A stretch of 47,843 bases of DNA from an uncultured Verrucomicrobiota bacterium. GTDB taxonomy: Bacteria > Verrucomicrobiota > Verrucomicrobiia > Limisphaerales > UBA9464. The stretch covers positions 1 through 47,843 of the forward strand of contig CAIRNV010000451.1 of assembly GCA_903880005.1 (NCBI GenBank), in the 5' to 3' direction. The notes under the pieces are model-generated. The model saw nothing but the letters and a program-made list of their open reading frames with translations. It had not been told where the DNA came from and did not search any database. Both the position numbers and the translations under genes were made by a program. Below, in pieces: positions 36,479-42,612 of this stretch (positions are counted from its first letter, which is position 1; each line of letters opens with the position of its first letter).

Positions 36479-36645
36479 AGCCGGGACGATTCAGTTGGGA
36501 GGGAAGTGATTGCGAAGCAGATGCTTGCGCAAGCCGAGGAGTGAGCGAGGCGCGGGCCAGTGCGAGGCCCGTAACGAGCGAACGACGAAGGAGTTGCGCA
36601 AGCAGATCGAGCAAGCACGACCGACCCAACTGAATCGTTCCGGCT
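36479..36645 (+). repeat. Family A palindromic element, copy 5
   Basis: This is a complete 167-bp copy with perfect arms at the inner part (CGATTCAGTTGGG / CCCAACTGAATCG) and ends AGCCGGGA / TTCCGGCT. It begins 6 bp after the ABC ATPase stop. The remaining 110 bp up to the Rrf2 operator show no gene. Confidence 0.92.
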
Positions 36646-36756
36646 TTGCATGAAGGCGACGTCATGAGGCTGACGTTTGAACCGGACAAGAAACGTCTGA
36701 AAAAGCCTTTGACCGCCCGGGCAACGTCCATAGGCTTGGGAATCAGGACTGGATTA

Positions 36757-36780: not shown

Positions 36781-37326
36781 ATGCAAATCACGAGGGCAGC
36801 AGAATACGGGGTGCTTGGGCTCATGGCCCTGGCCCGGCGTCCTCAGGGCGAGGTGGTGATGATCGAGACGCTCTGCACCGAGGAAGAGGTGCCGGTGAGC
36901 TTTCTCGGCAAGATCTTTCAGAGCCTGGCCAAGGCAGGAATCGTCAAGTCTGCGCGGGGTTCGGGAGGGGGCTTCAGCTTGGCTCGGACGCCTTCGGACA
37001 TCTCCGCGCTGGAGATCATTGAGGCCATTGAGGGCCCAATTGCCCTCCAGCGTTGCTTGGACCTGGATGAGGGATGCGACCATAGCCGGGGCTGCGCCTT
37101 GTGCGGCTTGCTCTCGGAAGCCCAGGAGCGCGTGAAGGAGGTCTTGGGCCGATCCACCCTTTCTGAACTTGCGGGGCGCCACATTCCGAATTCCTTGGTC
37201 CGGCAGGCGCGCGATCGTGGCCAACTGGTCATCAAGGAGCCCTGCGGCGAAGCGTGCAGCGATGCCTCAGACGCCCCCGCCAAGGACGGCACGCCCCCGG
37301 ATGGCAAGGGAACGATGGTTTTGTAA
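36781..37326 (+). CDS. Rrf2-family Fe-S-type transcriptional regulator (IscR-like)
   Basis: This 181-aa regulator has the winged-helix N-terminus MQITRAAEYGVLGLMALARR, then VPVSFLGKIFQSLAKAGIVK and the wing RGSGGGFSLARTPSDISALE. A cysteine cluster C92, C99, C105 and C108 (RCLDLDEGC, HSRGCALCGL) lies at the place where IscR binds its [2Fe-2S] cluster. The tail (about 150-181) is rich in Pro, Asp and Gly with two more cysteines (EPCGEACSDASD). It lies 22 bp upstream of iscU, so it very probably controls the iscU operon and itself in response to Fe-S status. NsrR/RsrR-like nitric oxide or redox sensing is an alternative. Confidence 0.92.
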   Translation: MQITRAAEYGVLGLMALARRPQGEVVMIETLCTEEEVPVSFLGKIFQSLAKAGIVKSARGSGGGFSLARTPSDISALEIIEAIEGPIALQRCLDLDEGCDHSRGCALCGLLSEAQERVKEVLGRSTLSELAGRHIPNSLVRQARDRGQLVIKEPCGEACSDASDAPAKDGTPPDGKGTMVL

Positions 37327-37348: not shown

Positions 37349-37777
37349 ATGAGCGACACGTACACGTTGTATAATTCGACCGTAATGGATCACTTCATGA
37401 ACCCCCGCAACATGGGCGACCTCAAGGACGCCGATGGCGTGGGCGAAGTCGGCGCGGCGGCATGCGGCGACATCATGAAGATCAGCCTGAAGATCAAGGG
37501 CGGCCGCATCGAGGATGCGCGATTCAAGACCTTTGGCTGCGGCTCGGCCATCGCCAGCTCGAGCATGGCCACGGAATTGATCAAGGGCCGCACGATCGAG
37601 GAGGCCATGAACTTCTCGAACCAGGAGGTGGTGGAGGCGCTGGGCGGCTTGCCACCGGTGAAAATCCACTGCTCCGTCCTGGCGGAGGAGGCCCTCAAGG
37701 CGGCCTTGGAAGACTATGTGAAGCGGAACCCGGAGTCTGCCGCACCCGTCGCCAAGCCGGAGCCGGTCTCGGCGTAG
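37349..37777 (+). CDS. iscU: Fe-S cluster assembly scaffold IscU
   Basis: IscU is the scaffold on which [2Fe-2S] clusters are built. The 142-aa protein starts at ATG 37349 after AGAGGA. It has the three cluster cysteines and the conserved Asp: AAACGDIMKISLKI (Cys39, Asp41), FKTFGCGSAIASSS (Cys64) and PPVKIHCSVLAEEAL (His107, Cys108). The LPPVK chaperone-recognition motif (GLPPVKIHCS) is intact, so an HscA-like partner is expected elsewhere. A short Ala/Pro tail follows. All functional residues are present, in contrast to the IscS homologue downstream. Confidence 0.96.
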   Translation: MSDTYTLYNSTVMDHFMNPRNMGDLKDADGVGEVGAAACGDIMKISLKIKGGRIEDARFKTFGCGSAIASSSMATELIKGRTIEEAMNFSNQEVVEALGGLPPVKIHCSVLAEEALKAALEDYVKRNPESAAPVAKPEPVSA

Positions 37778-38045: not shown

Positions 38046-39317
38046 ATGCGCAACGTCTATCTGGACCACCAATCGGCGACGCCCCTGCTGCCAGAGGCCT
38101 TCGAGGCCATGCGCCCCTTCTTCACCGAGTACTTCGGCAATGCCTCGTCGCTTCACCAGCACGGTCTCCGCGTGCGCGACGCCCTGAAGACGGCGCGCCA
38201 ACATCAAGCCGCCCTCATCCACGCGGAGTCCGAGGAGGAAATCTTCTTCACCTCGGACGGCACCGAGTCGGCCAACTTGGCGATCAAGGGCGTTGCGTAC
38301 GCCAATGAACGCAAGGGAAAGCACCTCGTGGTCTCCGCCACCGAGCATCCCTCCGTGATGAACTCGGTCGAGTTCCTCGAAAAGCAGGGGTGGACCTGCA
38401 CCCGCGTCCCGGTGGACTCCCAGGGGTTCCTGAGCCTCGATGCGCTGCGCGGGGCGCTGACACCCCAAACCGTCCTTGTCGCCGTGCATCATGTGAACCA
38501 TGACATCGGGACCATCCAACCCGTGGCGGACGTGGGGCGGATCTGCACGGAGGCCGGGATTCCGCTCTATGTGGATTGCGAGGCCAGCGCCGGATGGCTG
38601 CCCGTGGACGTCCGTGCGATGGGCGCATCCTTGGTGAGTTATTCGCCCCATCGGTTTTACGGGCCCAAGGGCGTCGGGGTGTTGTACCGGCACCGGCGCG
38701 CGCGCCTGGTTTCCATCTTGCATGGCGGCGTCCAGGAAGGCGGGCGTCGCGCCGGGACCGAGAACATCCCGGCGATTGTGGGTGCAGGCGTGGCGGCCGA
38801 GGTGGCGGCCAGGGAACTGGACGGCCGGGCCTCCCATGTGGCGGGGTTGCAACAACGCCTGTGGCAGGGACTTTTGCAGCGCATCCCGTACATCAAGCTC
38901 AACGGCCCCGTGCCGGGCCCGGGACGCGCCCCCAACAACATCAACATTTCCACCGAGTTCATCGAGGGCGAGGGCCAGTTGCTGCTGTGTGATCTCAACG
39001 GGATCGCCGTCGCATCGGGGTCATCCTGCGTCTCCAAGTCCCTCAAGATCTCGCATGTCCTGGCGGCCATCGGCCTCGACCACGCCCTCGCCCAAGGCAA
39101 CCTCATCCTGACCCTCGGCAAGGACAACACCGAGACCGACGTGGACTATGTCATCGAGACCTTTGCCAAGATCGTCGGCAAGCTGCGGGGCATGTCGCCC
39201 ATGTGGGACGAGTTTGAGCGCGGCGTGATTGATTCCGTCATCGCCCCGCGCGGCATCGGCCGATCCTTCAGCGAGCACGCCGCGGCGGTCTCGGGCAAGC
39301 CGGCGCATGGATCGTAA
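38046..39317 (+). CDS. IscS/NifS homologue lacking the PLP lysine
   Basis: This 423-aa protein aligns by eye with cysteine desulfurases over its whole length: VYLDHQSATPLLPEAFEAM, NASSLHQHG, FTSDGTESANLAIKG, SATEHPSVMNS, VHHVNHDIGTIQPV, YVDCEASAGWLPVDV, SYSPHRFYGPKGVGVLY, GGRRAGTENIPAIVGAG and VASGSSCVSKSLKISHVLAA. The sulfur-accepting cysteine is kept (Cys328), as are His101 and Asp177. The PLP-binding lysine of the SxHK motif is Arg203 (codon CGG at 38652). The Gln that contacts PLP is Ala180, and the substrate-carboxylate Arg of RxSLGR is Ile354 (LILTLGKDN). It is therefore unlikely to be a desulfurase. A C-terminal extension of about 30 residues follows. It lies 268 bp after iscU in the same direction. 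Confidence 0.9.
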   Translation: MRNVYLDHQSATPLLPEAFEAMRPFFTEYFGNASSLHQHGLRVRDALKTARQHQAALIHAESEEEIFFTSDGTESANLAIKGVAYANERKGKHLVVSATEHPSVMNSVEFLEKQGWTCTRVPVDSQGFLSLDALRGALTPQTVLVAVHHVNHDIGTIQPVADVGRICTEAGIPLYVDCEASAGWLPVDVRAMGASLVSYSPHRFYGPKGVGVLYRHRRARLVSILHGGVQEGGRRAGTENIPAIVGAGVAAEVAARELDGRASHVAGLQQRLWQGLLQRIPYIKLNGPVPGPGRAPNNINISTEFIEGEGQLLLCDLNGIAVASGSSCVSKSLKISHVLAAIGLDHALAQGNLILTLGKDNTETDVDYVIETFAKIVGKLRGMSPMWDEFERGVIDSVIAPRGIGRSFSEHAAAVSGKPAHGS

Positions 39318-39540: not shown

Positions 39541-40443
39541 GTGCATTTCGACAAGGTGGCCTTGGTGGGCGTCGGCTTGCTGGGCGGTTCGCTGGGGTTG
39601 GCCCTCCGCGCCCGGCGCATGGCCGCGCATGTCTCCGGCCTCGTCCGTCGCGACGCATCCATCCGTGAGTGCCTCGAAAGGGGGGCCGTGGACTCCGCAT
39701 CCACCTCCATGGCCGAGGTGGTCTCGGGCGCGGACGTCGTCGTCCTGTGCACGCCGGTGGGCGACATGCCCGCCATGGCCCGGGCCATCGCCCCGTGCCT
39801 CGCTCCCCGGGCCGTGATCACGGACGTGGGCTCCGTCAAGGGATCCGTGATGCGCGAGGTGGCGCCCAAGTTGCCGGCGGGTTGCTTCGTAGGAAGCCAT
39901 CCCATGGCCGGGTCCGAGCAAGCCGGGGTGGGCGCTGCCCGGGCCGACCTGTTCGACGGTGCCCGATGCGCCGTGACGCCGTCCGCGGAGAGCTTGCCCG
40001 GCGTGACCGATGCCGTGGAGGGTCTATGGCGCGGCGTCGGGGCGGAGGTGATGCGGATGTCACCGGAGTTGCATGATGCCTGGGTTGCTCGCGCCAGCCA
40101 CTTGCCGCACGTGCTGGCAGCGGTGTTGGCCCATGACGTCCTGGATCCCTCGATGGCCGCCGAGGTCCGGAGGTTGTGTGCAACGGGCTTCCGTGACACC
40201 ACGCGCATTGCATCAGGACACCCGGGAATGTGGCGGGACATCCTGTTGTCGAACCGGGCGGCCATCCTCGAGGCGTTGGCTGAATGGCGCGACGAACTCG
40301 CTGGTCTTGAACGTCTGATCGCTGACGGGGATGCGGAGGGCACCGAGCGGTTCCTTGCCGAGGCCCGCCACCGTCGCGAGGCATGGACCCATTCCCCGCG
40401 CGGCCCCCACGCCGATTCATCCTCGTCCGCAACGCACGCCTGA
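39541..40443 (+). CDS. tyrA: Prephenate/arogenate dehydrogenase
   Basis: TyrA oxidatively decarboxylates prephenate (or arogenate) on the way to tyrosine. The 300-aa protein starts at GTG 39541 (VHFDKVALVGVGLLGGS). It has the NAD-binding GVGLLGGSLGLAL, VVLCTPVGDMPAMARAI, VITDVGSVKGSVMREV, GSHPMAGSEQAGVGAARADL and the helical C-terminal domain with SPELHDAWVARASHLPHVLA and FRDTTRIASGHPGMWRDIL. The SHLPHV histidine fits the catalytic site. Specificity for prephenate versus arogenate cannot be told. It is the first gene of tyrA-aroA-cmk, 7 bp before aroA. The 223 bp upstream of it show no gene. Confidence 0.94.
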   Translation: MHFDKVALVGVGLLGGSLGLALRARRMAAHVSGLVRRDASIRECLERGAVDSASTSMAEVVSGADVVVLCTPVGDMPAMARAIAPCLAPRAVITDVGSVKGSVMREVAPKLPAGCFVGSHPMAGSEQAGVGAARADLFDGARCAVTPSAESLPGVTDAVEGLWRGVGAEVMRMSPELHDAWVARASHLPHVLAAVLAHDVLDPSMAAEVRRLCATGFRDTTRIASGHPGMWRDILLSNRAAILEALAEWRDELAGLERLIADGDAEGTERFLAEARHRREAWTHSPRGPHADSSSSATHA

Positions 40444-41743: not shown

Positions 41744-42447
41744 CCCAGGCCTTCTGCGATGCCGCCTTGCGGCTGCCGCACGTCGTGGCCATCGACGGCC
41801 CCAGTGCCTCCGGGAAGGGAACCCTGGCCCGGCGCCTCGCAGCGGACTTCGGCTGCACCTACGTGGATAGCGGGGCCATGTACCGAACCCTTGCGTGGTG
41901 GACGTTGCAAAGCGGGCTGAGGTGCGAGAAGCCCATGAGGCCCTCGGAAGAGGACGCCATCGTGCGGCTCATGCGTCGTTGGGACGCGCGGCTGCGAGTG
42001 ATCGACGGTGCCGCATGGTTCACCGTCGCCGGCTACTTCCCGCGCGAGGAAATCCGATCAGACCGCGTCGAGAGGGCCGTGCCGGTGGTCGCGCAGATCA
42101 CCCGAATCCGCGTCTGGATGGTCGCTCGCCAGCGTGACTGCGCACAGTTTGGCCCGCTGGTCATGGAGGGCCGAGACATCGGGACCGAGGTCTTTCCCTT
42201 GGCGCAGGTGAAGTTCTTCCTCGAGGCCGATGCCGCGGTGCGAGAGCAACGCCTTGCGCAGCGCGGCAATGCGGGCAGCGCGGGGTCCGGGCGGGACGCC
42301 ATGGACGCCACGCGACGCAAGGGAGCCTTGTACCCCGCATTGGACGCCATCCGCATCGACAACACCCACCAAACCCCGGATGAAACCTATGAGATCATGC
42401 GTTCCCACATGGGCAGACTTCGCGTCGCCGGCGCTTGGCCAGCCTAA
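41740..42447 (+). CDS. cmk: Cytidylate kinase
   Basis: Cmk phosphorylates CMP and dCMP. The 235-aa protein has the P-loop VVAIDGPSASGKGTLARRLA, YVDSGAMYRTLAWWTL, the CMP-site region FGPLVMEGRDIGTEVFPLAQ with KFFLEADAAVREQRLAQRG, and IRIDNTHQTPDETYEIM at the end. It overlaps aroA by 4 bp, the widespread tyrA/aroA-cmk arrangement. Its TAA stop is directly followed by GCC of a family A arm. Confidence 0.95.
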   Translation: MTQAFCDAALRLPHVVAIDGPSASGKGTLARRLAADFGCTYVDSGAMYRTLAWWTLQSGLRCEKPMRPSEEDAIVRLMRRWDARLRVIDGAAWFTVAGYFPREEIRSDRVERAVPVVAQITRIRVWMVARQRDCAQFGPLVMEGRDIGTEVFPLAQVKFFLEADAAVREQRLAQRGNAGSAGSGRDAMDATRRKGALYPALDAIRIDNTHQTPDETYEIMRSHMGRLRVAGAWPA

Positions 42448-42612
42448 GCCGGAACGATGCAGTTGGATCGGTCGTGCTTGCTGGATCTTCCTTCGCAAGA
42501 GCTTCGTCCTTCGCTCGTTACGGGCCTCGTACCGGCCCGCGCCTCGCTCACTCCTCGTCTTGCGAAAGAATCTGCGGCGCAATCACTTCCCTCCCAACTG
42601 CATCGTTCCGGC
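42447..42612 (-). repeat. Family A palindromic element, copy 6 (inverted interior)
   Basis: The copy begins in the cmk stop codon with AGCCGGAACGATGCAGTTGG and ends CCAACTGCATCGTTCCGGCC. Its interior is in reverse orientation relative to copies 3-5. Both arms carry GATGCAG/CTGCATC where copy 5 has GATTCAG/CTGAATC, a paired change that keeps the arms complementary. Confidence 0.92.

Follow-up and report, generated by a model that had tools for sequence, protein, structure and literature searches.

A lineage of lysine-less IscS homologues in Verrucomicrobiota and its association with the IscU scaffold

In model systems a single protein acts on the scaffold IscU both as sulfur source and as platform, so it is difficult to tell whether IscU needs IscS for its sulfur only or for the platform too. 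The question is raised again by a gene in the window, the 47,843-nucleotide stretch of DNA from an uncultured Verrucomicrobiota bacterium analysed here, which encodes an IscS homologue without the PLP lysine. The pattern described below suggests that IscS can persist as a non-enzymatic assembly partner with sulfur supplied by another enzyme: evolution seems here to have separated the two roles, in many bacterial species that apparently have no other scaffold system. Single lysine-less cases from Archaea might be set aside as curiosities, which is not possible for a conserved lineage across many families. In addition, since lysine-less proteins are recognised by their similarity to desulfurases, pathway reconstructions would tend to misassign the sulfur step.

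Active-site residues of the window protein

The gene (38046..39317, plus strand) is an intact open reading frame for an IscS/NifS homologue of 423 aa with the class V aminotransferase fold (Pfam Aminotran_5, 1.2e-62). Its translation reads SPHRFYGPKG at the SxHK site, and alignment with E. coli IscS places Arg203 (codon CGG, 38652..38654, plus strand) at the position of the PLP lysine, K206. The Gln that contacts PLP (Q183 in E. coli) is replaced by Ala180 (38583..38585, plus strand) and the Arg that holds the substrate carboxylate (R354) by Ile354 (39105..39107, plus strand). T76, H104, D180, S203, H205 and C328 of E. coli IscS are all retained. Among the retained residues are Asp177 (38574..38576, plus strand), which in canonical enzymes pairs with the PLP ring nitrogen, and Cys328 (39027..39029, plus strand), which the alignment and the AF2 model place in the mobile loop. 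In A. fulgidus IscS (reference sequence PDB chain 4eb5_A), D199, A176, L347 and C321 align with Arg203, Ala180, Ile354 and Cys328 respectively. Both alignments agree with an earlier note on this DNA regarding the three replacements, and the VNHDIG and RAGTE motifs, His101, Asp177, Cys328 and the intact frame are also as described there. The same note had considered that an alignment might put another lysine at the PLP place; we found none, K208 being the ordinary GPKG lysine that is common to most canonical enzymes too.

The AF2 model (mean pLDDT 92) has the IscS fold, with TM-scores (target length) of 0.92-0.97 to E. coli IscS, A. fulgidus IscS and human NFS1, and its top fold matches are IscS/NFS1 structures, many of them in complexes with IscU/ISCU. 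The least certain internal stretch of the model is residues 327-331 in the Cys328 loop, as expected of a mobile loop. Among the NCBIfam models NifS scores best, with 417.5 bits, but does not reach its cut-off of 530.75, and all other listed NCBIfam desulfurase models likewise score below cut-off. Compared with group I cysteine desulfurases, the protein has the fold and the loop cysteine, and lacks the lysine, the Gln, the Arg and an equivalog score. Without the PLP lysine no aldimine forms in IscS/NifS enzymology and, with the cofactor and substrate residues gone as well, cysteine desulfuration would not be expected of this protein.

Conservation of the lysine-less family

A scan of 84,980 species returned at least 80 loci, with 62-90 % identity among the matches listed, nearly all of which are titled Verrucomicrobia. 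To count residues we used 120 distinct Verrucomicrobiota homologues, divergent members included. Residue 203 is Arg in 114 of the 120, Lys in 4, His in 1 and Gly in 1. Gln180 is absent from all 120 and Arg354 is found in 1 of 119, while Cys328 and Asp177 are invariant (120/120 each); in a canonical comparison set the Gln, Lys, Cys and Arg are present in 12 out of 12. The arginine at position 203 is encoded by CGG (39 homologues), CGC (37), CGT (27), CGA (10) and AGG (1), and the use of five different codons indicates that the amino acid is kept rather than the codon. Most pairs have an omega of about 0.06-0.11 (full range 0.015-0.17), with dS close to saturation in the comparisons that involve the window gene. 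The conservation, the synonymous Arg codons and the low omega rule out a sequencing error or a pseudogene.

In the tree, the lysine-less homologues form one monophyletic clade (SH-aLRT 100). The four Lys203 members sit inside this clade and have neither the Gln nor the Arg, which makes them resemble partial reversals, or cases of a tolerated K/R exchange, and not active ancestors; position 203 may thus matter only for its charge, or may allow some chemistry. Three proteins from other orders of the same class (L143, L144 and L145) are more distant relatives with 44-47 % identity, in which the SxHK site reads YR, RG and HR. The SxHK motif is lost altogether in L144, and all three keep the Cys.

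The residues of the PLP site are kept at 96-100 % (His101, His202 and Thr73 in 115 of 120 each, besides Asp177), more than a scaffold needs, which speaks against a pure scaffold and makes non-covalent PLP binding conceivable. One explanation would be an altered PLP enzyme or PLP-binding protein that holds PLP or another phosphate ligand non-covalently beside Arg203, for a different reaction or for a structural or regulatory role. Arg203 is conserved and not drifting, with Lys in the four members above, and the structure of the lysine-less A. fulgidus IscS is drawn with PLP (PMC9769115). However, virtually no member retains Gln180 or Arg354, the residues to which desulfurases owe their grip on cofactor and substrate, and we consider this explanation unlikely.

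Gene neighbourhood and the SUF system

Upstream of the window gene lie, on the same strand and in the order Rrf2-IscU-IscS, an Rrf2-family regulator (36781..37326, plus strand; PF02082, 1.8e-32, and NCBIfam) and an IscU scaffold of 142 aa (37349..37777, plus strand) with Cys39, Asp41, Cys64, Cys108 and LPPVK, which scores 195.9 bits with NifU_clost, over the cut-off. The gap between IscU and the lysine-less IscS is 268 nt. Pfam and NCBIfam agree on the identity of both upstream genes as first read from the sequence. Scanning the window operon for promoters and terminators gave nothing above chance. A 167-nt MITE-like element with terminal inverted repeats of about 35 nt is present twice in opposite orientations (36480-36646 and 42446-42612; the two copies are 89 % complementary), with one copy ending 134 nt before Rrf2. 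Its terminal motif is found 15 times in the window, where chance would give 0.01.

Most close members of the family have IscU just upstream on the same strand. Of 93 loci, among which some species occur twice, 64 have both Rrf2 and IscU on the strand of the lysine-less gene, almost always upstream of it, and another 16 have IscU alone, half of them on contigs ending within 1.5 kb. Each of the three Cys is present in 79-80 of 80 of these neighbouring IscU proteins, and the Asp in 80 of 80. The divergent members (41-67 % identity) mostly have neither IscU nor Rrf2 within about 2-3 kb. The pairing of a conserved lysine-less IscS with IscU stands for the close members and not, for the most part, for the divergent ones, and the suggestion that lysine-less homologues might always sit with Rrf2 and IscU fails for the divergent half.

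The most general neighbour is instead an Mrp/ApbC-like Fe-S carrier ATPase, the commonest adjacent gene across the fetched loci of the family. It is located downstream on the same strand in 92 of the loci fetched (duplicates included), often within 200 nt; in some loci SufT comes next after it. The window itself has no Mrp downstream of the lysine-less IscS, the next gene there being ORF 39541-40443, which from its sequence we take to be TyrA-like. In eleven loci (L118, L151, L156-L159, L161, L163, L168, L169 and L172) Mrp/ApbC follows directly with a gap below 100 nt; in all of these the 2-3 kb or so upstream are without IscU and Rrf2, and their genomes carry SUF.

The Rrf2 gene raises the possibility of a regulatory protein that would report, with Rrf2, the load of IscU while assembly itself is left to a Lys-type NifS. 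The frequency of Rrf2 beside IscU in the loci above is consistent with such a function, as are Cys92, Cys99, Cys105 and Cys108 of Rrf2, retained in nearly all relatives, and a locus (L164) where Rrf2 alone is directly upstream of the lysine-less IscS. Against this, the divergent members mostly lack Rrf2, and since Rrf2-type regulators commonly adjoin Fe-S assembly genes (PMC9973013) the neighbour says nothing specific. We regard a regulatory function as very improbable, and the sensing complex suggested in the earlier note found no support beyond this neighbour.

To relate the family to the scaffold systems of its hosts we surveyed 217 genomes of the order, requested at 85 % completeness or more. 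A close orthologue was defined by at least 72 % identity (one partial gene included) and an IscU-type protein by a NifU_N match at E 1e-40 or better; weaker NifU_N matches, which often share a contig with a nearby SufB/D, resemble SufU. Close orthologues are present in 54 genomes, of which 53 have IscU and 50 are without SufB/SufD. Divergent members occur in 49 genomes (46 with SUF, 3 with IscU), and the remaining 114 genomes have no member (110 with SUF, 1 with IscU). The pair of IscU and lysine-less IscS nearly replaces SUF in the surveyed order, and in about 50 species the operon for the single scaffold detected also encodes the lysine-less IscS. The finding is thus wider than the single locus of the earlier note, extending to a Verrucomicrobiota lineage. 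The surveyed genomes are related, so that the Fisher p of 1e-36 does not represent independent evidence, and the association with SUF probably rests on few independent losses. Furthermore, among 289 Verrucomicrobiota genomes surveyed across the phylum, nearly all from other orders, there are no close orthologues outside the order and SUF is found in 142, with no SufB/SufD in about half, so that lack of SUF does not by itself single out this family.

The window's genome (96.6 % complete) contains one NifU_N scaffold match, which is the window IscU, and no match to SufB/SufD (PF01458), for which 14 of 14 controls are positive. As the earlier note had anticipated, a normal desulfurase is encoded elsewhere in this genome: a Lys-type NifS on contig C79 passes the NCBIfam NifS cut-off, and a second Lys-type paralogue, below this cut-off, is on C120.

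Possible role and comparison with known systems

The retained Cys loop, the fold and the linkage to IscU would suit a protein docking on IscU. We favour, with some confidence, a role as a partner of IscU that is not itself a desulfurase, in which Cys328 serves as a sulfur relay or cluster ligand and sulfur comes in trans from a Lys-type NifS. The pseudo-desulfurase would have been kept as a structural partner that docks on IscU like IscS, and its flexible loop would bring Cys328 to the cluster site. Cys328 may then relay a persulfide accepted from the second, Lys-type NifS of the same cell. Alternatively it may be the fourth ligand of a nascent [2Fe-2S] cluster, as is Cys321 in the complex from A. 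fulgidus. Mrp/ApbC and A-type carriers would receive the clusters next. As divergent members in SUF genomes mostly have no IscU nearby, IscU cannot be the sole partner. More tentatively, we hypothesize that about 50 SUF-less Verrucomicrobiota obtain their whole-cell Fe-S supply via a scaffold with a pseudoenzyme IscS partner whose cofactor pocket, with Arg203 and the retained PLP-site residues, has been re-purposed; sulfur mobilisation and platform, which textbook ISC systems combine in one protein, would then be split between two IscS paralogues.

As a kind, a non-desulfurase IscS working with IscU is already known from Archaea. A. fulgidus IscS, where Asp replaces the Lys, has no desulfurase activity and gives the cluster a cysteine ligand (PMC7585200), and it is Cys321 that ligates the IscU cluster (PMC9769115). 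The comparison drawn in the earlier note is thus borne out by both literature and alignment for D199 and C321. A. fulgidus IscS (PDB 4eb5/4eb7/4hvk; D199K variant 4r5f) also shares with our family the loss of the Gln and the Arg, the loop Cys, the Asp and the IscS fold. It differs in having Asp for Arg203 and Asn for the preceding His, in its identity of about 42 % and in being archaeal. The free tree places it outside the Verrucomicrobiota clade, while a sister position is not rejected (p-AU 0.55, or 0.74 without the key columns) and the constrained tree has the higher likelihood, so either a shared origin or convergence would be compatible with the trees.

It is conceivable that the Verrucomicrobiota proteins simply copy A. 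fulgidus, with Cys328 solely a cluster ligand and with free sulfide or a low-molecular-weight persulfide reaching IscU without a desulfurase. Loss of the same three residues with retention of the Cys, together with the sister topology allowed by the trees, is in line with this possibility. The bona fide NifS in the genome and the complete canonical ligands of IscU argue against it, and the trees do not demonstrate common ancestry with A. fulgidus IscS; we rate it as improbable, somewhat below the altered PLP protein considered above.

M. acetivorans IscS1 is likewise reported to be without the lysine (PMC7585200) and, by its published description, is comparable in being encoded with IscU; its host differs in having two further IscS proteins (IscS2 shown active) and SufBC. 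We found no report of a lysine-less IscS in Verrucomicrobiota in the literature searched, the coverage of which is incomplete, and so far as that literature shows the bacterial clade, Arg203, the link to Mrp and the near-exclusion with SUF seem to be without precedent.

Returning to the IscU partner that we favour, its two-gene arrangement of a scaffold with an IscS-like protein is also that of the minimal IscU-IscS system (MIS) and of NifS/NifU pairs, and the window IscU passes the NifU_clost model. The MIS partner, however, is described as a cysteine desulfurase (PMC12192291), whereas the window partner is without the catalytic residues. With the E. coli ISC operon (iscRSUA-hscBA-fdx) the window shares an Rrf2-family regulator, an IscU with LPPVK and an IscS-like protein; it differs in the gene order, in the absence of the catalytic residues from its IscS, in the location of the A-type genes, which are elsewhere (contigs C275 and C5 encode A-type Fe-S carrier proteins), and in having no HscA over the cut-off. 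The best Hsp70 of the genome scores 618 bits against the HscA cut-off of 708.55, which only 1 of 14 controls passes. Immediately after the A-type gene on C5 (L173, G000:C5; seen in L133) is a J-domain gene, scoring 25.6 bits against the DnaJ cut-off of 27.8, whose product could be HscB.
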